A DNA stretch of 64,000 nucleotides from contig NZ_JAJPRF010000001.1 of assembly GCF_021206925.1 (NCBI RefSeq), forward strand, positions 1 to 64,000, read 5' to 3'. The DNA is from Rhodoflexus caldus (GTDB lineage Bacteria > Bacteroidota > Bacteroidia > Cytophagales > Thermoflexibacteraceae). Below are positions 2,255 to 24,495 of the stretch, in pieces (within the stretch, counting starts at the first letter, position 1; the number at the start of each line of letters is the position of its first letter). The notes under the pieces were generated by a model. It did no database searches. It saw nothing but the letters and a program-made list of their open reading frames with translations, and was not told the DNA's origin. The position numbers and the translations under genes are program-made.

Positions 2255-3553
2255 TCATGAATCCCCGCCTTTTTTTGCCGCATCCAACTGCCTCAGCCAG
2301 CGCTCTAAGGCATCTTCGGGTGTATTGACGTACTTCATGAGCGTTTCTACATCGTCATGCCCCGTGAGGCGCTGCAATACATTGAGCGGAATGCCCCGCG
2401 TGCCCAATATCGTAATTGCCGTCCTTCGTGCGCAATGGCTGCTCACCAATTCGTACTTGGAGCATTCAATTGTTACCAACTGATTGCCGCTGTATCGTTG
2501 GATGCGTGCGGTTGCCGTAATACCCGCTATCTGACACACCTCTTTGATGAGGTGATTAAAACGATGCTGCGATATGTGGTTAGGTAGGTTGCCGTTGTAT
2601 TTATTGAGGATGTCCCAAGCACCGCCGCACCAGCCTACCAACGGCACGCGGATAAAATCTTTGGTTTTGTAAGAGGTAAATTCCCAGTAATTGCCTTTTA
2701 TCTGTTCGGGTCGGAAGGCTTCCACATCGCTCCAGCGTTGTGCCGTATAGCAGGCAAAGAGAAACAAATCCCGCACTTGTTCCAGTTGCTTGCGGGTGCT
2801 GAAATCATAGTCGCGCAGTTGTTCAAATTCCTCTTCGGTCAGTACGACAATATCATTTTTGCCCCCGCTGCGGGGTTTATCGTTCCGTCGGCTTGCATTG
2901 AAGTTGCGGAAGGCTTCATTGTCGTGGTAGCCCTTTTCCAATGCCCATTTCATAAATGCCTTGAACTTGCTGAAATACTTGGCGATGGTGGCATTCAAAA
3001 GCCCTTCGGGAACGCCTTTTTCCTTGTAGCGGGAAGTTTTGCGTTGCAGCAGATAGGCACGGAATTTATCTTCAAAGGTTTTGTCGATGCGCTTGAACGT
3101 CAGCTGATAGCCTGTAAGAGTTTCAAACTCTTGCAACATGTTAATCAGCGTTCGGGTGGGTTTCAATGTCAGTTCAGGCGTTTTGTTTTCTTGCTGCCAT
3201 TGGTAGTAGGCTTCCAGATAGTCAAAGAAGTTGTAGAGGCTGTCGGCATTGTTTTTCAGGGTGTTGCGCAGGTGTAGGCGGATTTCTTCGGGCGTAGGCA
3301 ATTTTTCTTGTTCAAGGGCTTTTTTGTAATAGGCAATGACAATCTGTTCTACCCGTTCCAGATAGATTTTGTAAGTGGTATAGTGGGCGGTGCTTTTTTT
3401 GGGTGCTTGCTTTTTAAAATCCCACATGTGGGTTTCAATGCTGATGCCTGTTGAACAGGTCAGCGCCCGACTGTGGTAATAGAACCGCAGGTAGATGGCG
3501 GACTTATCTTTTTTGGGATGCACCAAGTAAAAATGGACATTTTTATCGGGCAT
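2255..3553 (-). CDS. Tyrosine recombinase/integrase, Bacteroidota type
   Basis: The 432-residue protein has the phage-integrase-family layout common in Bacteroidota. An N-terminal arm-binding region (IYLRFYYHSRALTCSTGI) is followed by a SAM-like core-binding domain around residues 110-210 and a C-terminal catalytic domain. Catalytic residues are visible: Arg in AQRWSDVEAF, His-x-x-Arg in SSHCARRTAI, His in LTGHDDVETL and the nucleophilic Tyr in LMKYVN. It is probably functional and would cut and rejoin DNA at an attachment site. It sits beside the decayed trailer end of the CRISPR array and the truncated oxidoreductase, so it probably belongs to a mobile element that helped build this island. 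No paired att repeats were seen. Confidence 0.9.
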   Translation of the reverse strand: MPDKNVHFYLVHPKKDKSAIYLRFYYHSRALTCSTGISIETHMWDFKKQAPKKSTAHYTTYKIYLERVEQIVIAYYKKALEQEKLPTPEEIRLHLRNTLKNNADSLYNFFDYLEAYYQWQQENKTPELTLKPTRTLINMLQEFETLTGYQLTFKRIDKTFEDKFRAYLLQRKTSRYKEKGVPEGLLNATIAKYFSKFKAFMKWALEKGYHDNEAFRNFNASRRNDKPRSGGKNDIVVLTEEEFEQLRDYDFSTRKQLEQVRDLFLFACYTAQRWSDVEAFRPEQIKGNYWEFTSYKTKDFIRVPLVGWCGGAWDILNKYNGNLPNHISQHRFNHLIKEVCQIAGITATARIQRYSGNQLVTIECSKYELVSSHCARRTAITILGTRGIPLNVLQRLTGHDDVETLMKYVNTPEDALERWLRQLDAAKKGGDS

Positions 3554-3691: not shown

Positions 3692-6600
3692 AAGAAAGAT
3701 ATATTTATAGTGAAGGGAGTACTCTGACTCACTTTTCGCACAAGTGATGGTTAAATAAGACTTGTCGCAATCCATCTCTTATTGAAGGGAGTACTCCGAC
3801 AGACTCTGCGTTACCTACACGAGATGAATAAAAACGTCGCAATCCATCTCTTATTGAAGGGAGTACTCCGACTATGAAAAACCCATCGCACAATTTTTTC
3901 GCGACGGTCGCAATCCATCTCTTATTGAAGGGAGTACTCCGACACAATTCCTCCGTACGCATGTGCGAATGGTTTTATGTCGCAATCCATCTCTTATTGA
4001 AGGGAGTACTCCGACAGTCTGCCCCAAATACATAACAATTTGGGGTAAATGTCGCAATCCATCTCTTATTGAAGGGAGTACTCCGACGGTGGCAAAACGG
4101 TGATTGCATCGGAAATCATCAAAAGTCGCAATCCATCTCTTATTGAAGGGAGTACTCCGACGAAGTGAGTTAGGAACCATGCTCACAAATAGTACGTCGC
4201 AATCCATCTCTTATTGAAGGGAGTACTCCGACTCTCAAAAAGCTCGCTATTGAACAAGGCATTAATGTCGCAATCCATCTCTTATTGAAGGGAGTACTCC
4301 GACACTAAAACAATATTATATGCACAAAATTGTAAAGGTCGCAATCCATCTCTTATTGAAGGGAGTACTCCGACCTGTTCAGAGGTGTGTGACCAAGAGG
4401 TCACATTAAGTCGCAATCCATCTCTTATTGAAGGGAGTACTCCGACAAAAACAACTTATTCGAAAAAGGCTCCAAGCCTTGTCGCAATCCATCTCTTATT
4501 GAAGGGAGTACTCCGACAAGTCAGGTAGAAGAAGAGCAAGCTGCTCCTTCATGTCGCAATCCATCTCTTATTGAAGGGAGTACTCCGACCTGTAGATTTT
4601 AATATCCAAGTTAGAAGCGATATTAAGTCGCAATCCATCTCTTATTGAAGGGAGTACTCCGACGGTCGCAAAGGGGCTCTACATGAAGTCCTAATAGGTC
4701 GCAATCCATCTCTTATTGAAGGGAGTACTCCGACTATTGTGGTAAACCATGCTAAGACCACGTTAAAATAGTCGCAATCCATCTCTTATTGAAGGGAGTA
4801 CTCCGACTGTACTAAAAACTTTATATATATGTATAACAAAATAGTCGCAATCCATCTCTTATTGAAGGGAGTACTCCGACCTTTTTGAGGTTCCGGCATA
4901 TTATTAATGGTTTCCGGTCGCAATCCATCTCTTATTGAAGGGAGTACTCCGACAGTACCCGAGAATATAATGGGTAGAAAGTCTCTCGTCGCAATCCATC
5001 TCTTATTGAAGGGAGTACTCCGACTTGACTGTACTGTCAAAGAGAAGGTTCGATTCCTTGTCGCAATCCATCTCTTATTGAAGGGAGTACTCCGACTCGG
5101 TATAAAAACGTACTTGCCGAAGGGCTGTCAGTCGCAATCCATCTCTTATTGAAGGGAGTACTCCGACGGATTGGATTATCCGTGGGCACACACAAAAGAG
5201 AGTCGCAATCCATCTCTTATTGAAGGGAGTACTCCGACGTAATAACTGGAGTTAGATATGAAAATGATACTAAGTCGCAATCCATCTCTTATTGAAGGGA
5301 GTACTCCGACCCTTGTAGGTAATATCCTCTGTTAGTTACGGTTAAAGTCGCAATCCATCTCTTATTGAAGGGAGTACTCCGACAACTCTGGGTAGTTTTA
5401 AAATTCAGCGATCTTTTGTCGCAATCCATCTCTTATTGAAGGGAGTACTCCGACCATTAGCCACATGAGGTAATGGCACAACCATACACAGTCGCAATCC
5501 ATCTCTTATTGAAGGGAGTACTCCGACTAGTTTACATAGGCTTAGCCTAGGTACTATAGTGTCGCAATCCATCTCTTATTGAAGGGAGTACTCCGACAAA
5601 GTTTACATAGGCTTAGCCTAGGTACTATAGTGTCGCAATCCATCTCTTATTGAAGGGAGTACTCCGACAAAGTTCTTAAGTAATCAAAAATTGGAACAAG
5701 TTGTCGCAATCCATCTCTTATTGAAGGGAGTACTCCGACTGACCAGAGCGTGGTGGAGCTTCCACCATCTGTGGTCGCAATCCATCTCTTATTGAAGGGA
5801 GTACTCCGACTGGAAGAATATAACTCTTTATATAGCTGCGAGTGTCGCAATCCATCTCTTATTGAAGGGAGTACTCCGACTGGAAGAATATAACTCTTTA
5901 TATAGCTGCGAGTGTCGCAATCCATCTCTTATTGAAGGGAGTACTCCGACTACAAGCTACTATTGCAGAGAAGGTTCGATTCCTGTCGCAATCCATCTCT
6001 TATTGAAGGGAGTACTCCGACCGGGAAAGGGTCGGTATAAAAACGAGATGCTAAACGGTCGCAATCCATCTCTTATTGAAGGGAGTACTCCGACTTACTT
6101 GCATCCAGTCTACCACTGAACGTAAGTCAGTCGCAATCCATCTCTTATTGAAGGGAGTACTCCGACGAGTTACCCATTTGTACGTAACAAAAGATACGGA
6201 GGTCGCAATCCATCTCTTATTGAAGGGAGTACTCCGACTTTCTTTTATCTTAGTATCGATTTGATCCATTAGTCGCAATCCATCTCTTATTGAAGGGAGT
6301 ACTCCGACACTCTATGTAATGTATAACAAGATAACGGTGGAGTGTCGCAATCCATCTCTTATTGAAGGGAGTACTCCGACGGGTTCCCTGCGGGGGTTAG
6401 TGTGCCATACTCATTGTCGCAATCCATCTCTTATTGAAGGGAGTACTCCGACTAAAGTTTAATTAAATATTATAATTTGGCTTATATTGTCGCAATCCAT
6501 CTCTTATTGAAGGGAGTACTCCGACCACACTTACATTGTGGGCTAATCTCTTTGCAGGTGTCGCAATCCATCTCTTATTGAAGGGAGTACTCCGACTTGA

Positions 6601-9600
6601 ACTAAAATTAATTAAAATGTATAACAAGATGTCGCAATCCATCTCTTATTGAAGGGAGTACTCCGACCTCTATCTTTAATAATAAAGATATAAGAGGATA
6701 AAGTCGCAATCCATCTCTTATTGAAGGGAGTACTCCGACACTATAGTTTCCCCCCCCCAAAGGGGCCCCTCACGTCGCAATCCATCTCTTATTGAAGGGA
6801 GTACTCCGACTTTTACACACAGGTTTCTCCATTCCCTGTACTATTGTCGCAATCCATCTCTTATTGAAGGGAGTACTCCGACTAGTTACCATCATAGGCG
6901 CCTTCTCCTCAAAAGAGTCGCAATCCATCTCTTATTGAAGGGAGTACTCCGACATTAAAAAATTATGTATAACAAGATAACAGTGGAGTGTCGCAATCCA
7001 TCTCTTATTGAAGGGAGTACTCCGACTCTCCGTGAAACACGCGTGGTATTATTTTTTAGCGTCGCAATCCATCTCTTATTGAAGGGAGTACTCCGACACA
7101 CCTTGGCTGAAGCCCTCCCCGTTGAAATAAAGTCGCAATCCATCTCTTATTGAAGGGAGTACTCCGACTATTGTACAGTTCAACAGTAGTAGTCTCCGTG
7201 AAAGTCGCAATCCATCTCTTATTGAAGGGAGTACTCCGACATTAAGAGAGAAGAGAGTCTCTTACGGTTAAGACAAGTCGCAATCCATCTCTTATTGAAG
7301 GGAGTACTCCGACATTAAGAGAGAAGAGAGTCTCTTACGGTTAAGACAAGTCGCAATCCATCTCTTATTGAAGGGAGTACTCCGACAACACCTTGGCCGA
7401 CGTCCTCCCCGTGGACGTTAGTCGCAATCCATCTCTTATTGAAGGGAGTACTCCGACGCCTGTTCATTGCGAACCACGTGTCAGTCTTCGGGTCGCAATC
7501 CATCTCTTATTGAAGGGAGTACTCCGACTTCAACAGTACAAGTGAACTTACACCCGGCCTCGTGTCGCAATCCATCTCTTATTGAAGGGAGTACTCCGAC
7601 AAAGTGGCCCTCTCACTTCTGACAAATTTATTGTGTCGCAATCCATCTCTTATTGAAGGGAGTACTCCGACTCGCAATCGCTTTCCATGTTGGAGGCGAT
7701 TATCCTCTGTCGCAATCCATCTCTTATTGAAGGGAGTACTCCGACTATAGCAAAGTCATAGTGGAGTCGCCCGGCAAGATGGGTCGCAATCCATCTCTTA
7801 TTGAAGGGAGTACTCCGACAGCGAGGAAGCCCCTTCATAATAAATAATGAAAAAGTCGCAATCCATCTCTTATTGAAGGGAGTACTCCGACGGATAGAAA
7901 TATATCGTGGTATCATGCTAAGACGTCGCAATCCATCTCTTATTGAAGGGAGTACTCCGACTGGCGCCGTTCATGACTTTTCTTCTTCAAGACTAGCGTC
8001 GCAATCCATCTCTTATTGAAGGGAGTACTCCGACTATCCATAGGTTTTAGCACCGTAAGGTGATGAGGAAGTCGCAATCCATCTCTTATTGAAGGGAGTA
8101 CTCCGACAGTTATAGTGGAGTCGGCCGGCAAGATGGCCGGGCGTCGCAATCCATCTCTTATTGAAGGGAGTACTCCGACTTCGGATAAAGATTCCACTCT
8201 TTCCTCACTACGGGAGTCGCAATCCATCTCTTATTGAAGGGAGTACTCCGACTTCAACAGTACAAGTGAACTTACACCCGGCCTCGTGTCGCAATCCATC
8301 TCTTATTGAAGGGAGTACTCCGACATCATAGTATAACTATGGCGTATCCTTGGTGCTTAGTCGCAATCCATCTCTTATTGAAGGGAGTACTCCGACTTGA
8401 AGTATAAAACAGTATAGTTATGTATAGTAAAGTGTCGCAATCCATCTCTTATTGAAGGGAGTACTCCGACAAATTTAAAAAAGATGTTTAACAGCAAAAA
8501 AAACAGTCGCAATCCATCTCTTATTGAAGGGAGTACTCCGACATTCAAACGACGAGTGTATTTTATGACCATCTCACTTGTCGCAATCCATCTCTTATTG
8601 AAGGGAGTACTCCGACAAGAGGTATTTATAGATTTCCATTAAGATCTTATTTAGTCGCAATCCATCTCTTATTGAAGGGAGTACTCCGACTAGTTATGTA
8701 CAGCAAAGTAACAGTAGAGTCGGCAGGGTCGCAATCCATCTCTTATTGAAGGGAGTACTCCGACTAAAATAATGAATATTTCAAAAATCATTAGAAAATC
8801 GTCGCAATCCATCTCTTATTGAAGGGAGTACTCCGACCGTACAAATCTTTATCGGAGAGCTCGCCTTTCCGAATGTCGCAATCCATCTCTTATTGAAGGG
8901 AGTACTCCGACACGGGGAGGATTTTCGCCAATTCATTTTTATACCGTCGCAATCCATCTCTTATTGAAGGGAGTACTCCGACAGCGTTAGCAAAACTTGT
9001 ATCCGGAAAGTTCTTAGTCGCAATCCATCTCTTATTGAAGGGAGTACTCCGACTAAATGCAAGAAAAAATGAAACAAAAAATCACAAGTCGCAATCCATC
9101 TCTTATTGAAGGGAGTACTCCGACTCTCACCCACCAAAAAAAAGATTGGTGGAGAGTGTCGCAATCCATCTCTTATTGAAGGGAGTACTCCGACGAAGAG
9201 ATGTTAGATGCTACTTCTAGCGCTTTGAGTCGCAATCCATCTCTTATTGAAGGGAGTACTCCGACGATAATCCAATCCGATGCAAATCCGTCCGGCCCGG
9301 TCGCAATCCATCTCTTATTGAAGGGAGTACTCCGACGACTACCGCTATGTCCGCCTTTCCACCGTCGAAGGTGTCGCAATCCATCTCTTATTGAAGGGAG
9401 TACTCCGACGGGAGGATGGTTTCGTTCATTGTAATTGCCAAGCCGGTCGCAATCCATCTCTTATTGAAGGGAGTACTCCGACGGTAATCTTGTAAATCAA
9501 AAAAAGAATCAGCTGGTCGCAATCCATCTCTTATTGAAGGGAGTACTCCGACCAGGTTGTAGTTGTAAATGAAGTTGGGAGAACTGTGTCGCAATCCATC

Positions 9601-11491
9601 TCTTATTGAAGGGAGTACTCCGACACAGCTTTCTTTAAGCTATAAGCACCAAGAATACACGTCGCAATCCATCTCTTATTGAAGGGAGTACTCCGACATA
9701 GTTAAACACGGAAGGCAGGTCGAAGTCTATAGAGTCGCAATCCATCTCTTATTGAAGGGAGTACTCCGACATTCTCACAATTAATTTTACAAGACCCGTT
9801 TACACAAGTCGCAATCCATCTCTTATTGAAGGGAGTACTCCGACACAAGTCAGAGTATCAACATTCAAATTTGACAGATGTCGCAATCCATCTCTTATTG
9901 AAGGGAGTACTCCGACACTCTGAATTGATTCAGAAGTATCTTGATAGGAAAGTCGCAATCCATCTCTTATTGAAGGGAGTACTCCGACTCAGTCAGTTTC
10001 GCGTCCTTGGCCCGTATGATTACGTGTCGCAATCCATCTCTTATTGAAGGGAGTACTCCGACTTAACAACGTTGAATACGTTCCGTCTGAAACAATGTCG
10101 CAATCCATCTCTTATTGAAGGGAGTACTCCGACCTAAACACTCAAAATCATGGCTATTGCAAATTCCGTCGCAATCCATCTCTTATTGAAGGGAGTACTC
10201 CGACTATCCCCCGATGACACCTTTGTTGGTGGCTTCTTGGTCGCAATCCATCTCTTATTGAAGGGAGTACTCCGACCGAATGACATTCTTCAGAGGGAAA
10301 GACGATCCCTGTCGCAATCCATCTCTTATTGAAGGGAGTACTCCGACACAACCTGTCCAACAGGCATTCGCAGGGTATCAAAGTCGCAATCCATCTCTTA
10401 TTGAAGGGAGTACTCCGACACAAAGAAGGGTAGAGTAAATCAAACCCTTCTTGTAGTCGCAATCCATCTCTTATTGAAGGGAGTACTCCGACACTTGTGA
10501 TGTGGTCATGCCTGAAATAATAAGGGGTCGCAATCCATCTCTTATTGAAGGGAGTACTCCGACTTTTTATCCAATGACACACAAAGAGATAGAAGCTGTC
10601 GCAATCCATCTCTTATTGAAGGGAGTACTCCGACATTTAGGAATAAAAGTTTTAGTTTTCAAATCAAAGTCGCAATCCATCTCTTATTGAAGGGAGTACT
10701 CCGACCGGGTAGTAGTTTAAGTAAAAGTAGTGGTAACCAGTCGCAATCCATCTCTTATTGAAGGGAGTACTCCGACTATATGACAAGGTACAATCGTAAG
10801 GATTATCTTTGTCGCAATCCATCTCTTATTGAAGGGAGTACTCCGACTTGATTTGTTATATTAGATGGCCCAAATATAGGAGGTCGCAATCCATCTCTTA
10901 TTGAAGGGAGTACTCCGACTCTCTTCTTCCAATCCATAAACTCACACCCATATAGTCGCAATCCATCTCTTATTGAAGGGAGTACTCCGACTGAACATAG
11001 TTCTCTGTCCACACAATTTTTTATTGTCGCAATCCATCTCTTATTGAAGGGAGTACTCCGACAGACTTGGGCTCAGGTATTACAGCTACGTTCACGAAGT
11101 CGCAATCCATCTCTTATTGAAGGGAGTACTCCGACAACTTTCGTCGTAATATAAATTGCTTATCGTACCAGTCGCAATCCATCTCTTATTGAAGGGAGTA
11201 CTCCGACTCAACACCGCCCTATCTCGCAATGAGGACATTTTGTCGCAATCCATCTCTTATTGAAGGGAGTACTCCGACAGATACCTAATACCATTGGAAA
11301 AACATGCTAAAAGGTCGCAATCCATCTCTTATTGAAGGGAGTACTCCGACAGAGAAAACAAAGTTAATAATAAAAAGTTAAATGTCGCAATCCATCTCTT
11401 ATTGAAGGGAGTACTCCGACTTTCGTGATAGTTTTTACTATCAATTGGAAAAATGTCGCAATCCATCTCTTATTGAAGGGAGTACTCCGAC
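3692..11491 (-). CRISPR. CRISPR array, 108 intact repeats plus one decayed terminal repeat
   Basis: I counted 108 near-identical 37-bp repeats, the first at 3764-3800 and the last at 11455-11491, with spacers of about 33-37 nt (period about 72). On the plus strand the repeat begins GTCGCAATCC and ends GTACTCCGAC. On the minus strand it begins GTCGGAGTAC and ends ATTGCGAC. A partly decayed copy sits at 3692-3728, which marks the old (trailer) end on the left. The leader is therefore on the right, next to cas2, and transcription is leftward. The minus-strand 3' end ATTGCGAC fits the 8-nt 5' tag left on crRNAs by Cas6, as in type III systems. Several spacers are exact duplicates: 5811-5843 with 5881-5913, 7241-7276 with 7314-7349, and 7529-7563 with 8253-8287. 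Confidence 0.98.
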
Positions 11492-11655
11492 AGCAATCTC
11501 TGCAAATCGGTCTGATAACCAAATACTTGGCTTGAAATTTTCCCCAAACTTTTTTGCAGCCACTGCATTTATCTTATTTTTTATTTGACTTTTCCAATAA
11601 GCCAAAGAGCGGAGTGGTCGGTTTTCCGCCCCCTCGTTCGGTAATGCAATTTACG
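11492..11655 (-). promoter_or_regulatory. CRISPR leader
   Basis: This is the 164 bp between the last intact repeat and the cas2 stop codon. It is AT-rich with T-runs, has no repeat and no gene, and lies opposite the decayed repeat end. By position it should carry the leftward pre-crRNA promoter and the integration signals used by Cas1-Cas2. I could not assign a clear TAnnTTTG box. Confidence 0.7.
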
Positions 11656-16938: not shown

Positions 16939-18027
16939 TTACGGTTTCATGTAACCGTAACCGATGGCGGTTTTTGCGCCGATGCCGCGTTCTTGCAGAG
17001 CTTCTTTGAGAAAGTCCGAAACTACCGAAAGCATATCACCTCTTTTTGACCCTAACGTAATATGTGCATTTTCCATGCCTTTGTGCAAGCCTACCATAAA
17101 TTGGAAAGTGAGGTTTTCAACGGTGAGGAAAATGATGGGGTTCAATTTGTGATAGTCGGCAGGTGGTGCTTCGCCGTTGTAGTAGGGCTGATAATGGTTG
17201 TTCATTATATCTGCCTTGATGCAACCTTGCGGGCTGCGGGTGGGGTAGGCATCAAAGAAGATGACGCTGCCTTGCTCTGTTTTGTCAGACAGGATTTCAG
17301 GATTGACAGGATTTTTTTGGAAGTCTTCTTCGCTGTAATGTGTGCCGAATATTTTTTTGATGTTAGCTAAGTCTTCGTTTGTTTTGGCGTTTTCAAGGGC
17401 GTAATGGTGCGTGATGCCTTTAATAGCACTTGCCGGAATATACGGAAATCCGTAAACGTGATGCAGAGAGATAGAGGTTTCAAACACTGAACCGCTGCCC
17501 AAACCTACAGCTAATCGCCAATCGGGTTTAAATTGCAGATCATTTATTTGATTGTTGTCATACACTTTGGGCAATAAATTACCACCTGTGAGTTGTAATG
17601 CGTTGCGATGATGGCGAGTGATGAAGTTTTGATAATACTTTTTAACTGCTTCATCTTCACTGTCCCCAAAAGCAGTTTGACAATCTTCGCCTCGCTTTTT
17701 TAACATGCGATTTTCTATTTTAAAATTCGTATCGTCAAAAATCTTCTCCTTGTGAAGTTTGAGAGCGAAGTTTTCTAATATCAACTTTTTAGCCAATGCT
17801 TTTAATGAAAGAATAGTCCAGCTAGGTTTTCCCTTATATTTAGTTGCCTGAATTTCAAGCTCAAACTCGTCGCCTTTTTTAGGATTTAAATTTGTAGATT
17901 TCTTTTGCTGTAAGGTTGCATAGTTTATAAAAATATCCGGGCTTACATCTCTTGCAACAAGCCAACCATTCTTAGCATTGGTATCCCAACTGCTCACAGT
18001 AGCAAGTACTTTTTTCATTTCTGCCAT
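16939..18027 (-). CDS. cmr6: Type III-B subunit Cmr6 with an N-terminal OB/cold-shock-like domain
   Basis: Residues ~85-362 form the Cmr6 RAMP domain: RLAVGLGSGSVFETSISLHH, FPYIPASAIKGITHHYAL and a glycine-rich end GIGAKTAIGYGYMKP. Cmr6 caps the crRNA 3' side of the Cmr filament. The first ~75 residues are extra and resemble a cold-shock/S1-type OB fold: NGWLVARD as RNP1-like, DIFINYATL as RNP2-like, then a GDEFELEIQ strand. An added single-strand RNA-binding domain is a reasonable inference. Residues 239-247 (NPVNPEILS) are encoded by a repeat that recurs elsewhere in this operon and may be an in-frame insertion. The stop of cmr5 lies 2 bp upstream of this start. Confidence 0.93.
   Translation of the reverse strand: MAEMKKVLATVSSWDTNAKNGWLVARDVSPDIFINYATLQQKKSTNLNPKKGDEFELEIQATKYKGKPSWTILSLKALAKKLILENFALKLHKEKIFDDTNFKIENRMLKKRGEDCQTAFGDSEDEAVKKYYQNFITRHHRNALQLTGGNLLPKVYDNNQINDLQFKPDWRLAVGLGSGSVFETSISLHHVYGFPYIPASAIKGITHHYALENAKTNEDLANIKKIFGTHYSEEDFQKNPVNPEILSDKTEQGSVIFFDAYPTRSPQGCIKADIMNNHYQPYYNGEAPPADYHKLNPIIFLTVENLTFQFMVGLHKGMENAHITLGSKRGDMLSVVSDFLKEALQERGIGAKTAIGYGYMKP
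17287..17313 (-). repeat. GATTTCAGGATT-type interspersed repeat inside cmr6
   Basis: The plus strand reads GACAGGATTTCAGGATTGAC followed by AGGATT. The same ~26-bp unit occurs at 18555-18580, 18596-18621 (inverted), 19016-19041, 19048-19072 (inverted) and 22049-22075. Here it lies in frame in cmr6 and encodes NPVNPEILS. Confidence 0.8.
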
Positions 18028-18554: not shown

Positions 18555-18621
18555 GACAGGATTGCAGGATTAACAAGATAAATTTGAAATAAAAAAATCC
18601 TGTAAATCCTGAAATCCTGTC
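18555..18621. repeat. Inverted pair of the interspersed repeat, left border of the GxxExxY gene
   Basis: A forward copy (18555-18580) and an inverted copy (18596-18621, AATCCTGTAAATCCTGAAAT onward) face each other across 15 bp and could form a long hairpin. The inverted copy ends on the first base of the GxxExxY stop codon. As a stem followed by A/T runs it may also act as a terminator. Confidence 0.85.
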
Positions 18622-19001
18622 TAACTCGCTTTGGGTTTATACACCCGATACTTGCGTTTTACCTCTACCGACGAGCCGAAGTTTATCAGCAAGCCTATGT
18701 CAAGCCCTGTGCCTTTGAGGTAATTGACCAACTGCGTTTCGTGCAGCGGGTGTAGGTTCTCTACGGCTTTTAATTCTATAATCACTACGTAATTCACCAA
18801 CAAATCGGCATAATACTCACCTACCAACTGCTTTTCGTAATATACATCAATAGGGTATTGTTGATAGACTTCAAAACCATTGTTTTGTAACTCTATCTTT
18901 AAAGCGTTTTCATACACCTTTTCCAAAAAGCCCGCCCCCAATGTATTATGCACCTTGTAGGCACAGGCAATGATTTGTTTGGTGAGTTCTTCGTGCTGCA
19001 T
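18621..19001 (-). CDS. GxxExxY family protein (PD-(D/E)XK-like)
   Basis: The 126-residue protein belongs to the GxxExxY family (TIGR04256/PDDEXK_3). It has the name motif GAGFLEKVYENAL, then YYADLLVNYVVIIELKAVENL, where the Asp and the ExK pair give a compact PD-(D/E)XK nuclease signature, then HETQLVNYLKGTGLDIGLLINFG. The biological role is not established. Both borders carry inverted pairs of the same 26-bp repeat (18555-18621 and 19016-19072). The gene and its borders therefore look like one insertion unit placed between cmr4 and cmr5. It reads in the operon direction, so the operon may still be transcribed through it. Confidence 0.9.
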   Translation of the reverse strand: MQHEELTKQIIACAYKVHNTLGAGFLEKVYENALKIELQNNGFEVYQQYPIDVYYEKQLVGEYYADLLVNYVVIIELKAVENLHPLHETQLVNYLKGTGLDIGLLINFGSSVEVKRKYRVYKPKAS

Positions 19002-19015
19002 ACGTTATTGTTTTT

Positions 19016-19072
19016 GACAGGATTTCAAGATTTACAAGATTTCTTCTATCCTGTTAATCCTGAAATCCTGTC
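19016..19072. repeat. Inverted pair of the interspersed repeat, right border of the GxxExxY gene
   Basis: A forward copy at 19016-19041 and an inverted copy at 19048-19072 are separated by 6 bp. They mirror the pair on the other side of the GxxExxY gene. The inverted copy ends 2 bp before the cmr4 stop codon. Confidence 0.85.
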
Positions 19073-19074
19073 TG

Positions 19075-20058
19075 TTAAGTATTTACAAATTTAGTTCTCA
19101 CAATTCCTTTACCTAAGGTAGCGTTTCCGCCGATTTGTACGATAGACGGTAATTGTCCGAAAAACTCTTCTACCTGCGATGCCGTCATCTTTCCTTCTTT
19201 ATCTGAAAACTCATCCGAAAACATTACCAAAGAGTACATAACGCTCTCGGCGGGAAGATATTCTTCGCTGAACAATGCACTTTGCTGTACCGTACCTGTT
19301 TCGTTGTTGATTTTGGTGCGGGTAATCACTTCGGTAGCAAGGGTTACGAAGTCGCGGAAGTCGTTGTCGTCAAGGACTACGATGTCGGTTTTGATTTTTT
19401 CAGACCAATAACTTTGGTCATCGTTGAATAAGGTTTTTGAAAGCCAAATACCTAACTTATTTACTTCGTTATCAGAAGTAACAGGATTCACTTTTGAAAA
19501 AACAAATTCTTCTAATTGCATCTTTTGCCCTTGGCCAAAAAGAGCAGAGCCATTAGCCACCATTGCACCGTTAATTTCTTTGAAATCAAATTGCAAATCG
19601 GTCAATCCCAAATCCGAAATAAACTTCTTTATCACTCTCGGACAGGTAATCCACGCAAATACGCCGTACAAAGACTTGACGGGAAACAACAACAAGCGGG
19701 CATCGGTCAGGGCTAATGCTCCTGAGAATTGGGAATTGTCTTTGAATGCTTCTTTTAAATGGTCTTTCGCAGAGAAACGTTTTTTTACATCAATGCCTAA
19801 CTCTCCATCATCAAAGCCAAAAGCTTTGTTAATTTTGATTAGGTTATTTTTTGCTTTATCATCGTCTTTTTCAGACAAAACTAATTCACTCTCAAAAGCC
19901 TCTCTCAACGCACCTTTGAGCGAAGAGGCTTCTATCTTGGGGAAATTGGTGTGCCTTTCGCGTTGGATAGGCAAATCTACGATACCTAAATCTGAGCCGC
20001 TGCCTACGTGCAGGGGCGTTTCACAGATGAGGAATAAAGGCTTGGCATTTTTGTACAT
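19075..20058 (-). CDS. cmr4: Type III-B backbone subunit Cmr4
   Basis: The 327-residue RAMP protein starts MYKNAKPLFLICETPLHVGS and continues GIVDLPIQRERHTNFPKIEA and SSLKGALREAF, the typical Cmr4 opening. Asp28 in GIVDLPIQRE is at the position of the Cmr4 residue that cuts bound target RNA at 6-nt intervals. The C-terminal glycine-rich loop is IVQIGGNATLGKGIV. The subunit should form the repeated backbone of the Cmr filament and keep target RNase activity. A diverged copy of its 5' end lies at 20993-21037 at the start of the DUF6922-like gene. Confidence 0.95.
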   Translation of the reverse strand: MYKNAKPLFLICETPLHVGSGSDLGIVDLPIQRERHTNFPKIEASSLKGALREAFESELVLSEKDDDKAKNNLIKINKAFGFDDGELGIDVKKRFSAKDHLKEAFKDNSQFSGALALTDARLLLFPVKSLYGVFAWITCPRVIKKFISDLGLTDLQFDFKEINGAMVANGSALFGQGQKMQLEEFVFSKVNPVTSDNEVNKLGIWLSKTLFNDDQSYWSEKIKTDIVVLDDNDFRDFVTLATEVITRTKINNETGTVQQSALFSEEYLPAESVMYSLVMFSDEFSDKEGKMTASQVEEFFGQLPSIVQIGGNATLGKGIVRTKFVNT

Positions 20059-20076
20059 CGTGTTTTAAGATTTTAG
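20032..20076. repeat. cmr4 5'-end segment duplicated at 20993-21037
   Basis: Forty-five bases around the cmr4 start codon match 20993-21037 at 39 positions in the same orientation, by direct alignment. The two copies flank the AbiEii/DUF6922 module like a long direct repeat. Confidence 0.8.
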
Positions 20077-20712
20077 TTTATTCCAATACTTGATTTCGGT
20101 TTGAAAGTGCTTTGAGATTTGCAACAAGGAAACATTTTGTTGGGGTTTCAAATGTTGTATGTTCTCATCGGCTATGTCGTCTATGAAAATCAAAGCTCTT
20201 TGAAAAAGGGTTTTGCTTAGGTTTTTCTTTTTGACGGTAGTCATTTCAAACAATTCTTTGAGCGAAAAATGCTCTTTATTTAACACGTATAAATCGTAAT
20301 AATCACGAAACTTTGCTCTCAAAAATAAGGTATTCACTTTCATCACCGCCAAAACAGGCAATTCGGCGATGTACAGAAAATCAAATAAATGATTTCTGTT
20401 TTTAAGCTCCTCCCAACCATTGGCAAAAAAAGTCACTTTTACTCCATCTATCACAAAATCGGCTTGTTGCGGTGATAAATTCACGATTCTGATAGTTTCA
20501 AATTTGCCGCTGTTTTGTAAATTGTTTTGTATAGTCGTGGCTTGTAAATCGTTTTTCCAAGTAAAAAAATTAAGGTCTTCGCTATGACGACGCCCCAAAT
20601 AAACCGCCAATGCCGAACCGCCTACAAAAGTAAAATATTGCAGTAAGGGCATAGTGGCTAACCGGCGCAGCACTTTTTCGGTATCAGACAGTAAATTGTC
20701 TAATCCTTTCAT
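20065..20712 (-). CDS. AbiEii/AbiGii-type nucleotidyltransferase (toxin-like)
   Basis: The 215-residue protein (start chosen at 20712, MKGLDNLLSDTEKVL) has the nucleotidyltransferase motif FTFVGGSALAVYLGRRHSED, with a GGSALA turn and acidic residues in HSEDLNFF, then VKVTFF, AVMKVNTLFLRAKFRDYYDL and YVLNKEHFSL. This is the AbiEii (PF08843-like) fold. AbiE systems are abortive-infection toxin-antitoxin pairs in which AbiEii modifies nucleotides or RNA and AbiEi restrains it. The frame is open further upstream to 20895, but that part belongs to the overlapping partner gene. The pair is inserted between the DUF1016 gene and cmr4 in the operon direction. Confidence 0.85.
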   Translation of the reverse strand: MKGLDNLLSDTEKVLRRLATMPLLQYFTFVGGSALAVYLGRRHSEDLNFFTWKNDLQATTIQNNLQNSGKFETIRIVNLSPQQADFVIDGVKVTFFANGWEELKNRNHLFDFLYIAELPVLAVMKVNTLFLRAKFRDYYDLYVLNKEHFSLKELFEMTTVKKKNLSKTLFQRALIFIDDIADENIQHLKPQQNVSLLQISKHFQTEIKYWNKLKS

Positions 20713-21019
20713 AGCGACTGTATTTTTTTTGTAACGGCAAAATGTGCCTTTTCGGGTTTTGAATGTTGAAAAATATGGCTGCCAAATAGAAGTTGTGCCT
20801 GTAAATCCGCTCATCGGGCAGCATTTTTTCACGCCAAATCCTCTTGATTTCTTTGACGGAAAACATTTTGAACAAAGTTTGCAATTCCTCCACATCTCCC
20901 CACCGCAAAGCTTCCTCTATCAATACCTCGTCAGAAATTTCGGCATCGGGGGCATAGCTCCAAAATGCTCCGAGCTGGCGCAGGCGAGTGATGAATAAAG
21001 ACTTGGCGTTTTTGTACAT
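20684..21019 (-). CDS. DUF6922-like partner of the AbiEii protein (putative antitoxin)
   Basis: The 111-residue protein reads AFWSYAPDAEISDEVLIEEA, then LRWGDVEELQTLFKMFSVKE and KRIWREKMLPDERI, then FFNIQNPKRHI. This fits the small DUF6922 proteins found in front of AbiEii-like genes. The two frames overlap by 29 bp, as in many toxin-antitoxin pairs, so an antitoxin or regulatory role is inferred. The first residues (MYKNAKSLFITR) are nearly the same as the Cmr4 start (MYKNAKPLFLI). The DNA there is a 39/45 copy of the cmr4 start region, so this gene seems to have taken over the cmr4 translation start. Confidence 0.72.
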   Translation of the reverse strand: MYKNAKSLFITRLRQLGAFWSYAPDAEISDEVLIEEALRWGDVEELQTLFKMFSVKEIKRIWREKMLPDERIYRHNFYLAAIFFNIQNPKRHILPLQKKYSRYERIRQFTV

Positions 21020-21037
21020 CTTGTTTTATGGTTTTAA
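20993..21037. repeat. Second copy of the cmr4 5'-end segment
   Basis: This copy gives the DUF6922-like gene its start codon and first codons. Six of 45 positions differ from 20032-20076, so the duplication is not very recent. Confidence 0.8.
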
Positions 21038-22036
21038 ATGTTTGCTCTCGTTTTCAATCAATAATTTCTCCCTTTCCAATTCCATAATCAACTCATTTTC
21101 GGTAGGCAAGTACAATACGTATTTGGAAGCAAACAACTGCTTGCTTTCGCTCAAAACGGAATATTTTACAATCGTTTGGTCTTTGTGTGTGCAGAGAATT
21201 AGCCCAATGGTTGGGTTGTCGTCAGCGTTTTTGTATTTGTCCTCATACAAGCGGACGTACATATCCATTTGCCCGATGTCTTGGTGAGTGAGTTCGCCTA
21301 CTTTGAGGTCTATGAGTACAAAGCATTTCAAGATGTAGTTGTAAAAGACCAAATCAATATAAAAATGCTTGGTTTCGGTGCTGATGCGTTTTTGCCTGCC
21401 CACAAAGGCAAAGCCCTTACCCAATTCCAACAAAAACTCATTGAGTTTGTCCATCAATGCCTGCTCTAATTCGCTTTCCAAGTAGGTTTTGCTGTCTTTG
21501 AGTTGCAAGAACTCCAAAATGTATGGGTCTTTCAAAAATGTTTCGGGTTGTAAGTCTTTGGTTTTTTCCTGCATTTCTGCCTTTACTTCGTCTCGGTTTT
21601 GGGACGAAAGCAGGCGTTCGTAATACAAAGACTTGATTTGCCTGTCCAAAGCCCTTGTACTCCAATGGTTGGCAATGCTTTCTTGGATATAAAACTCTCT
21701 TGCTTTTTCGTTTTCTACTCTTAACAAAGTTCTATAATGCGTCCAACTTAATTCTGAACGCACTGCGTTCAAAATCGGGAAAGTGAGGTAAAACTGTTTG
21801 CAGTAAAGCAAATTACGTTCGCTGTAAGCATTGCCAAATTCGTCTGAAAGTTTATCAGCAAGATGTTTGATAAGGTTTTTGCCATACTCAGCTCTGTTTT
21901 TTCCCTGCTGCTCGTCTTCTACTATGTACCGCCCTATCAGCCAATAGGCTTCCAACATTGCCACATTGACCGTAGCAACTACCTTCTGCCTTGCCTCCAA
22001 AATCGTGAGGCGGATATTTTGATAGAGCGTTTCCAT
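21026..22036 (-). CDS. DUF1016 (YhcG-type) PD-(D/E)XK nuclease
   Basis: The 336-residue protein has the DUF1016 N-terminal helical domain (MLEAYWLIGRYIVEDEQQG, YGKNLIKHLADKLSDEFG) and the C-terminal PD-(D/E)XK nuclease domain. Catalytic elements are HFYIDLVFYNYILKCFVLIDLKVGEL (Asp in YIDL, Asp-x-Lys in IDLK). Members resemble Holliday-junction or restriction-type nucleases and often travel with restriction and defence genes; the specific role is not known. The gene lies 6 bp from the DUF6922-like start on one side and 9 bp from the CARF gene on the other, so it is part of the same transcript. It is not a normal Cmr component and is probably an insertion. Confidence 0.88.
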   Translation of the reverse strand: METLYQNIRLTILEARQKVVATVNVAMLEAYWLIGRYIVEDEQQGKNRAEYGKNLIKHLADKLSDEFGNAYSERNLLYCKQFYLTFPILNAVRSELSWTHYRTLLRVENEKAREFYIQESIANHWSTRALDRQIKSLYYERLLSSQNRDEVKAEMQEKTKDLQPETFLKDPYILEFLQLKDSKTYLESELEQALMDKLNEFLLELGKGFAFVGRQKRISTETKHFYIDLVFYNYILKCFVLIDLKVGELTHQDIGQMDMYVRLYEDKYKNADDNPTIGLILCTHKDQTIVKYSVLSESKQLFASKYVLYLPTENELIMELEREKLLIENESKHLKP

Positions 22037-22045
22037 TTTGTGTTT

Positions 22046-23446
22046 TTAGGACAGGATTTCAGGATTTACAGGGTTTTGGTTTTGTTGTGTTGAAAATATT
22101 TCACATACATTCCCAATGGTTGAACGCATAAACTCTTGGTATCTGAGCCTATTTCTGTTTCCGTCAATGACGTTCTGATTGATTGTCATTTTCTTTATCT
22201 TGAAAACAATGTTAGGAAATTCAGTTATAACTTCTTGATTTAGCACACTTTGGCACCAATTCAATTCATTCTGAAACGGGTTACTTTGAAACTCATATAA
22301 GATTATCCAAAACTCTTGCAAACTAACTTGTGGATTTAATTGATTGATAAGCCCAATGTTTTTACGTATTTTACTACGCATTGCTTTCGCACTTATTGAA
22401 GATGGTTTTATTTCAACGGCAATAACATTGTTATTTCCTTCATTAGAAAACCACAAGTCGGCATCTTCTAAATCTCTGTCAGGTTCATCTGAAAGTTTGA
22501 AACCAAGTATAACATTTGTATAACCGTGAGGCTTGTTTGCAACAAAGTATTCATAAAGTTTGTATTCAACGAAGTAACCCATTGTGGTTTTTTCAAAAGG
22601 TAAATCGTCAGAATTGAGTTTGTTTTTTATCAATTCACCAATTACTGAGAGTTCTGCGGGGATATTTTCAGACTTCAAAAGTCCTAATTTGAACATTTGA
22701 TTTACAATAGCCTGATGATTAACACTCAATAAGTTAGGGTTTATGATAAAATTCACGTAGTTCTCAATGTAGCCCAAGTCAAAATTTATCGGCAAATTCC
22801 CCACCGTTACCAATTCATTGGTTTTATCCAATTCGGTTTCGTTGTAGATGTACTTCAAAGGAATTTCTTTGAGTTGTCCGTAGAGCGTGAGGATAGGGAT
22901 AATTGCCTTATAGCCTCCCGTGATGTTGAGAATGTCGTTTTTACTTAATTTGAGTTTGTCTAACTGTTCAATCAAGTTCATAAAACCTTTTTCGTAGTTG
23001 CCTTTGCTATCTACTCGCAGGTCTTTGATGATGTGGGTGTCGTTGTGTGCAAAATGAACCGTTATTTTCTGTGTTACTGACTTATAATTTTCAAACCACT
23101 CCTTAATCAACTCACAAGCCAATACACTCAATACCGTATCAGTCGCCATGAGATACACTTCTGTATCTACTTGTGCTTCTTCCGTTATCTTGAGAATGGA
23201 TTTTATTTCGGCGGATGCATTGTCATCTGATTTTATGTTATTAAAAACGTTTTTACGTAAGCCATTTTTTTGGCTTAAACCTTTTGTTCCTTCAATGCAC
23301 TCTATTACCTGATTATCATTCCACTTATCAAAAGAATGATTTGCCTTATCAAGCGTATCATAATCATTTTTAAAAGTTGCATTTTTCCCGTCTTTAAAAA
23401 AATTGCTAAAAATGGAAGTCCCGACAGTGGTGATTATTTTTTTCAT
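22046..23446 (-). CDS. Second CARF effector with a C-terminal PD-(D/E)XK domain
   Basis: The 466-residue protein begins MKKIITTVGTSIFSNFF, typical of Csm6/Csx1-like CARF domains of the APE2256 type (TIGR02619-like). It has a second CARF motif LNITGGYKAIIPI at about residues 173-185. About 80 residues of linker helices follow. Then LEDADLWFSNEGNNNVIAVEIKPSS (about 326-350) gives the Asp and the Glu345-x-Lys347 pair of a PD-(D/E)XK nuclease. No HEPN R-x4-6-H motif was seen. It should be a cyclic-oligoadenylate-activated nuclease, different in order and sequence from the Card1-like protein of the same operon. The last nine residues (NPVNPEILS) and the stop context come from the interspersed repeat. 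Its 5' end overlaps cmr3 by 4 bp. Confidence 0.8.
   Translation of the reverse strand: MKKIITTVGTSIFSNFFKDGKNATFKNDYDTLDKANHSFDKWNDNQVIECIEGTKGLSQKNGLRKNVFNNIKSDDNASAEIKSILKITEEAQVDTEVYLMATDTVLSVLACELIKEWFENYKSVTQKITVHFAHNDTHIIKDLRVDSKGNYEKGFMNLIEQLDKLKLSKNDILNITGGYKAIIPILTLYGQLKEIPLKYIYNETELDKTNELVTVGNLPINFDLGYIENYVNFIINPNLLSVNHQAIVNQMFKLGLLKSENIPAELSVIGELIKNKLNSDDLPFEKTTMGYFVEYKLYEYFVANKPHGYTNVILGFKLSDEPDRDLEDADLWFSNEGNNNVIAVEIKPSSISAKAMRSKIRKNIGLINQLNPQVSLQEFWIILYEFQSNPFQNELNWCQSVLNQEVITEFPNIVFKIKKMTINQNVIDGNRNRLRYQEFMRSTIGNVCEIFSTQQNQNPVNPEILS
22049..22075 (-). repeat. Interspersed repeat forming the 3' end of the CARF gene
   Basis: This copy of the GACAGGATTTCAGGATTTAC unit supplies the last nine sense codons (NPVNPEILS) just before the stop at 22046. 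The same nine residues occur inside Cmr6. Confidence 0.8.
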
Positions 23447-24495
23447 TTTCCGATATAAGTTATGCCAAAACCTTCTTTGGCGGTATCACATTCTGATATG
23501 GATTTAAAATGAAATGCTTGGATAGCATCTTGATACGTACCCTCTAAAATTTCAAAATAATACACCGAACCCGCAGGAACATATTTATTCATTTCTTTGG
23601 GTTGTGCATTTTTTACATCAAAGCCACCTAATGAAATAGGTTTGCCCAAAGCGGTAGTCAATAATTTTACTTTTAAGATGCTTTCAGGAAAAGTGCCTAT
23701 GAGCGTATTTTCGTCAATCCAATTGGGCAGCCAACCTTTTTTGAAAAGGGCGGGGGTTGTCAGACATACCCGAAAGATATTATTTTCTATTGTTTGCGGG
23801 TAGTCAATAAAACCATTTTCAGGAATTGCTACATTTTCCAATTCATAAGAAAAGGTCTTACCCTCACCGCCAATTTTTGAAATGTATTTTTCGGGCAGTT
23901 CTAAGTTTTCAAACAGAACTACAATCTTAACACCATCTTGCAAACGTAACATTTCCACCCTATACAGTCGCCCTTCTTCCGTTGCTCTGCTTGCCTTGTT
24001 TCGTGCAATGCCTACTTTAGGCTCTTTGAATAAAAATCCTTTCTCTTTCACAGAAAGTTGTCCGATGTGTTGCTTTGCTAAAATATTTGTAAAATTTGCT
24101 ATATTTGTCAATCCTTCTATTCCTTCTGATAAAGCATTGGCAACGAGCACCTTATCAGTTTTGCAAGAACTGTAAGTTGGTTTGTTTTCTAACTTCAAAA
24201 AAGCAAATGTGTTGGTGTCTTTTTCTTTCACCACATCCTTCGGGACAGGCAAATAAACATCACCGTCTATTTGAAGGTAAATACCTTTTATCTTGAAGTC
24301 TTTGGTAAGTTCGTCTAATGCTTGTTTTGTCAAATCAAGTTTGCCATTATATGCAAAAAACAAAGTCCTCAACGCCCCATAAATCACACTAGGCGAGGGC
24401 GGAAACACACTGTCAGCCCAAGACTCATCTCCCATATCAAAAGGTTTTCCGTCCCGAAAAAAGAAAGTATCCAAAGGATTGATGCGTATAATCAT
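23443..24495 (-). CDS. cmr3: Type III-B subunit Cmr3
   Basis: The 350-residue RAMP protein opens with the signature Cmr3 sequence MIIRINPLDTFFFRDGKPFD, then SWADSVFPPSPSVIYGALRT. Later elements are PKVGIARNKASRATEEGRLY and a C-terminal loop KEGFGITYIGK. Cmr3 (Cas5-like) holds the crRNA 5' tag and docks to Cas10 (Cmr2). It lies 5 bp downstream of cmr2 and overlaps the CARF gene by 4 bp, as expected for a tight operon. Length and motifs are normal. Confidence 0.95.
   Translation of the reverse strand: MIIRINPLDTFFFRDGKPFDMGDESWADSVFPPSPSVIYGALRTLFFAYNGKLDLTKQALDELTKDFKIKGIYLQIDGDVYLPVPKDVVKEKDTNTFAFLKLENKPTYSSCKTDKVLVANALSEGIEGLTNIANFTNILAKQHIGQLSVKEKGFLFKEPKVGIARNKASRATEEGRLYRVEMLRLQDGVKIVVLFENLELPEKYISKIGGEGKTFSYELENVAIPENGFIDYPQTIENNIFRVCLTTPALFKKGWLPNWIDENTLIGTFPESILKVKLLTTALGKPISLGGFDVKNAQPKEMNKYVPAGSVYYFEILEGTYQDAIQAFHFKSISECDTAKEGFGITYIGK

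Follow-up and report, generated by a model that had tools for sequence, protein, structure and literature searches.

The window, by which we mean the whole stretch of 64,000 nucleotides analysed here, carries on its minus strand a type III-B (Cmr) operon in which cmr3, cmr4, cmr5 and a CARF accessory gene are all present. Along this strand, cmr3 (23443..24495; PF09700) is followed by the CARF accessory gene csx (22046..23446; Cas_APE2256), which is the usual neighbour of cmr4 in relatives, and by a YhcG gene (21026..22036; DUF1016/PDDEXK), itself an accessory gene lying between csx and cmr4. Next come a DUF6922-like gene encoding 111 aa (20684..21019), a gene for an AbiEii nucleotidyltransferase of 215 aa that overlaps it (20065..20712; PF08843, 41.7 bits against a cut-off of 22.5), and an intact cmr4 (19075..20058; TIGR02580, 231.7 bits, with Pfam RAMPs matches as well), all on the minus strand. 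A GxxExxY gene (18621-19001; TIGR04256) separates cmr4 from cmr5, and a further RAMP gene after cmr5 is taken as cmr6.

The operon and its surroundings also contain repeats of other kinds. A long CRISPR array lies nearby, at about 3757-11500, with the repeat GTCGCAATCCATCTCTTATTGAAGGGAGTACTCCGAC. A second repeat, GACAGGATTTCAGGATTNACAGGAT, occurs in six copies within the Cmr operon (17288-17312, 18555-18621, 19016-19072 and 22050-22074) and, allowing up to two mismatches, is absent from the remainder of the genome; it forms a hairpin on either side of the GxxExxY gene (18621-19001), constitutes the end of csx in one copy, and in another is read in frame inside the cmr6-like gene (NPVNPEILSD), as it also is in the related operon L017. 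Some relatives have a few copies of this repeat and others none, and in the operons L015 and L016 cmr4 directly adjoins cmr5 with no GxxExxY gene between.

The DUF6922-like and AbiEii genes are bounded by a direct repeat. A repeat search of the window returned a gapless repeat of 48 nt, with copies at 20028-20075 and 20989-21036 that are identical at 42 of 48 positions and 961 nt apart. On the minus strand the left copy (20989..21036; TAAAACCATAAAACAAG-ATGTACAAAAACGCCAAGTCTTTATTCATCA) takes in the last codons and stop of YhcG, a leader, the ATG and the first ~10 codons of the DUF6922-like gene, and the right copy (20028..20075; TAAAATCTTAAAACACG-ATGTACAAAAATGCCAAGCCTTTATTCCTCA) takes in the last codons and stop of AbiEii, a leader, the ATG and the first codons of cmr4. 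The preliminary description had reported 45 bp, identical at 39 of 45 positions, at the cmr4 start and at 20993-21037; this is the same block, slightly trimmed, and its view that direct repeats of host-operon sequence flank the gene pair holds over the full 48 nt. TAA, six bases and ATG follow one another with identical spacing at both joints (YhcG/DUF6922-like and AbiEii/cmr4), so that translation can still pass from each gene of the operon to the next. The six differences between the copies indicate that the duplication is not a fresh one. The next-best gapless match to the 48-nt block elsewhere in the window reaches 27/48, and a 27-nt core of the repeat, allowing up to three mismatches, occurs at these two places and no others in the 3.96-Mb genome. 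When we looked for pairs of direct repeats that were 40 nt or longer, at least 85% identical and 400-3000 bp apart, the 48-nt pair was the sole match in the window, the CRISPR array aside, and a 1.2-Mb sample of the remaining genome gave one pair (35/41).

Whose start was copied? The DUF6922-like protein begins MYKNAKSLFI and Cmr4 begins MYKNAKPLFL. Relatives of Cmr4 have N-termini of the form MYKNA.., MYK.. or MF.., and the closest of them match in DNA as well. Relatives of the DUF6922-like protein begin with MKLSKNELKEQIF.., MSNDAIKQELL.., MENSPEIK.. and, in G170, possibly MVLKKLQSL..; a Cmr4-like N-terminus occurs in none of the dozen or so found, their homology to the window protein sets in at about residue 8-10, and the G170 homolog, read from MVLKKLQSLKLFWSY, aligns with it from residue 8 onward. 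Downstream of its ATG at 21019, the next in-frame ATG, GTG or TTG of this gene comes no earlier than codon 33. It follows that residues 1 to about 8-10 of the DUF6922-like protein are derived from cmr4 and its native start has been lost. The suggestion that the copied start is that of cmr4, and that the gene uses this captured translation start, is thus supported by the relatives' N-termini and by the want of an alternative in-frame start; the converse idea, that DUF6922 proteins in general begin with MYKNAK-like residues, was rejected, since their starts differ. The window's own YhcG was also tested for a captured cmr4 start and has none.

The second gene of the pair may have been shaped by the repeat at its other end. 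The TAA of AbiEii lies inside the right copy, and a relative of the protein extends two residues beyond it, which suggests that this stop was probably captured; the terminal residues LKS may be native. The PADLOC AbiEii models match the window protein, and AbiEii is a family of nucleotidyltransferase toxins. Its partner matches none of the AbiEi models (Pfam, NCBIfam, PADLOC), nor does it match PF21956 (DUF6922) in Pfam, and its 44% relative in L006 reaches 21.3, short of that family's cut-off of 27; we therefore call it only DUF6922-like. A literature search on DUF6922 found nothing. Of the 'AbiE-type module' in the preliminary description, then, the toxin half stands and the partner does not. 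The catalytic motif of AbiEii reads D-L-N (20569..20577, minus strand) in place of the D-x-D or D-x-E of homologs; all other aligned homologs have D or E at the position concerned, and the window protein as translated is without one catalytic acid, with Asn instead. Both frames are open, and their differences from the G170 pair fall mostly at third codon positions, which points to past selection on both proteins. Given the DLN motif and the partner's replaced N-terminus, toxin-antitoxin activity of the present cassette seems doubtful. The closest DUF6922-AbiEii pair (L030, G170:C12:2592-4983) is present in two tandem copies 1488 bp apart, with an identical stretch of 1403 nt.

The joint into which this pair is set is variable among relatives. 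A scan of genome contigs yielded four closest Cmr operons, in which we distinguish YhcG-B, the subfamily of the window's YhcG, from the more distant YhcG-A: csx-cmr4 in L015 (Thermaurantimonas aggregans), where the leader reads CTAAAACCATAAAACACT-ATG, csx-YhcG-A-cmr4 in L016, csx-YhcG-B(truncated)-cmr4 in L017, and csx-YhcG-B-YhcG-A-cmr4 in L025. All four have csx or YhcG directly before cmr4, a single cmr4 start and a Cmr4 that is a 62-72% relative of the window's; the gene before cmr4 differs from that in the window, and the DUF6922-AbiEii module is absent from every one of them. We found no exact empty site with a YhcG-B so close to that of the window, the one in L017 being truncated. About half of the 12 other Cmr4-bearing genomes of the order have one or more extra genes before cmr4, among them YhcG, an IS200-like transposase, and a pair with HicB that we label nuclease-like from sequence appearance, in the absence of a Pfam match, and in the others that position is taken by csx or a spacer; in the cases read outside the order, csx or cmr3 precedes cmr4. 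In a tree of Cmr4 the window groups with L015, L016, L017 and L025 (support 1.00), and the branching order inside this group is weak (0.53). The module was likely gained in the window lineage, though it may have been lost elsewhere through recombination between the repeats. The preliminary description placed the insertion at cmr4; the actual point is the YhcG-cmr4 junction, and the joint either already held YhcG or gained it later. The YhcG beside csx is frameshifted in L025 (2974-3937) and truncated in L017 (5598-5975), so this accessory gene decays repeatedly.

We consider it probable that a DUF6922-AbiEii fragment of ~0.9 kb entered the YhcG-cmr4 junction with a target duplication of ~45-48 bp. 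On arrival the first gene of the fragment would have lacked its native start, and the duplicated target would have comprised the 3' end of YhcG, the leader and the first cmr4 codons. The left copy would then close YhcG and give the DUF6922-like gene its leader, ATG and 8-10 codons, and the right copy would keep cmr4 complete and probably provide the stop of AbiEii. A single insertion event with target duplication would suffice, most likely by illegitimate recombination or template switching, and the insert would have survived because cmr4 remained intact. Entry a few codons into cmr4 would destroy that gene unless its start were duplicated, so that survivors at such tight joints should show either clean entry or duplication. 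Against a single insertion we count the 6/48 differences, the failure to find the exact empty site, the tree support of 0.53 and the weak match between the two copies in L025 described below.

Do such duplications accompany small cassettes elsewhere? L025 offers a parallel at this very joint: directly before cmr4, the sequence encoding the last residues of its YhcG-A (LLIENLKP and stop) agrees with the 3'-terminal part of YhcG-B in the window at 29/29 positions with one 12-nt gap, a match reached in 0 of 1000 shuffles of either side. Other YhcG-A proteins are without this tail and end differently. The inserted nuclease gene thus appears to carry the 3' end of the preceding gene. L025 retains its own YhcG-B end upstream, in the frameshifted gene, and its own two copies match each other more weakly than L025 matches the window. 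A second parallel, a chance find, lies in L030 (G170) at 7756-8752, where genes for a Polbeta/MNT nucleotidyltransferase and an NTase_sub_bind protein stand between 47-nt repeats (46/47 identical, spacing 950) that represent the start of an fcl-like epimerase gene, one copy truncated at 26 codons and one full; the setting looks like a sugar-nucleotide operon. Three further candidates were not retained. The leader-like end of YhcG-A in L016 (HLKN and stop) was not significant, and the repeats around a decayed AbiEii in L076 are palindromic and look like a dispersed element. In L105, two neighbouring genes that lie between csx and HicB have a 51-nt block in common at their ends (2701-2751 and 3305-3355, 50/51), which may reflect gene conversion or duplication; we did not count it because the two proteins are paralogs, 41% identical, and gene conversion fits as well.

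No other DUF6922-AbiEii locus that we screened carries a neighbour's start, contrary to what might be expected if other DUF6922 genes bore the start of the gene they interrupt, and start capture is not a property of DUF6922. Nor is there a transposase or recombinase between the repeats, where the DUF6922-like and AbiEii genes are the only ones, and the repeat search found no pair of inverted repeats at the insert ends. The locus had been read as a way of entering an operon without breaking it, in the sense of a device. Because breakpoints vary, recombinase and terminal repeats are lacking, and the other DUF6922-AbiEii loci have no neighbour's start, duplication together with the survival of cmr4 is enough and no such device is needed.

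The main rival to insertion with target duplication is recombination between two sources: a donor Cmr operon already bearing the module before cmr4 would have recombined homologously at the conserved cmr4 start, so that the left copy is the recipient's start and the right copy the donor's, with no duplication at insertion. The 6/48 differences are about what separates the cmr4 starts of different genomes, and the joint does vary from operon to operon. However, none of the Cmr4 loci examined is a donor with DUF6922-AbiEii before cmr4, and a fusion event would still be required to account for the loss of the DUF6922 gene's own start at the cmr4 block; we judge this course of events unlikely. Site-specific integration is far less probable. 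Direct repeats that restore the start of a target gene do resemble attL and attR; on this view they would be attachment sites, left by an element with its own recombinase that targeted and rebuilt the 5' end of cmr4 and has since shrunk to two genes. But no recombinase or integrase gene lies between the repeats, the left copy runs in frame into a coding sequence that lost its own start, and the parallel cases (L025, L030) differ in target sequence. Chance or convergence, a common AT-rich leader beside a coincidentally similar N-terminus, can draw on the AT-richness of the leader and on similar leaders before cmr4 in relatives, but deserves practically no credence and was rejected, the core being unique to two sites, the N-termini of DUF6922 proteins elsewhere being different, and the nulls being far lower (42/48 against a maximum of 29/48 for the 48-nt block in 20 first-order random windows; local alignment score of the two copies 66, the null reaching at most 30).

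It has long been asked how genes come to lie inside functioning operons and yet leave them unbroken, and under insertion with target duplication the scar in the window is still readable, in that the inserted gene appears to have taken its translation start from the neighbour it displaced. Together with the similar inserts in related bacteria, the locus suggests that small defence cassettes can slip into operons via duplicated joints. A broader and speculative idea, which we regard as rather improbable, is that small defence cassettes of Bacteroidota (DUF6922-AbiEii, YhcG, MNT/NTase_sub_bind) are mobile through one common mechanism that needs no transposase and duplicates ~50 bp of an operon joint; if true, inserts would enter without their own start or stop and borrow those of the host, every host gene staying intact. 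As comparable cases exist both at this joint and in an operon unrelated to it, entry of this kind can be tested genome-wide by looking for cassettes between ~50-bp duplications of gene starts or ends.

The locus resembles several known arrangements and departs from each. Like several operons of the order, it has extra genes at the type III-B csx-cmr4 joint, yet in the window the start of an accessory gene is fused to a copy of a core cas gene's start. It shares with the AbiE (AbiEi-AbiEii) type IV toxin-antitoxin systems an overlapping two-gene unit whose second gene belongs to the AbiEii family, but here a DUF6922-like gene takes the place of AbiEi, and DxN stands where the catalytic motif is otherwise Dx[DE]. 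The closest precedent comes from restriction-modification genes, for which 'insertion with long target duplication', of variable length, has been described in Helicobacter (Nobusato et al. 2000; Furuta et al. 2010; cited by PMC3874152, PMC3031569 and PMC1643837). In both settings a small, transposase-free unit of defence type lies between target repeats and the target gene, here cmr4, is left whole. The window case differs in that the unit is a DUF6922-AbiEii pair, that the duplication is ~48 bp, as against the order of 100 bp given in PMC3874152, and that the duplicated start reads in frame into the inserted gene. Insertion with target duplication at this joint would thereby show that what has been described for restriction-modification genes also occurs with other genes of defence type.
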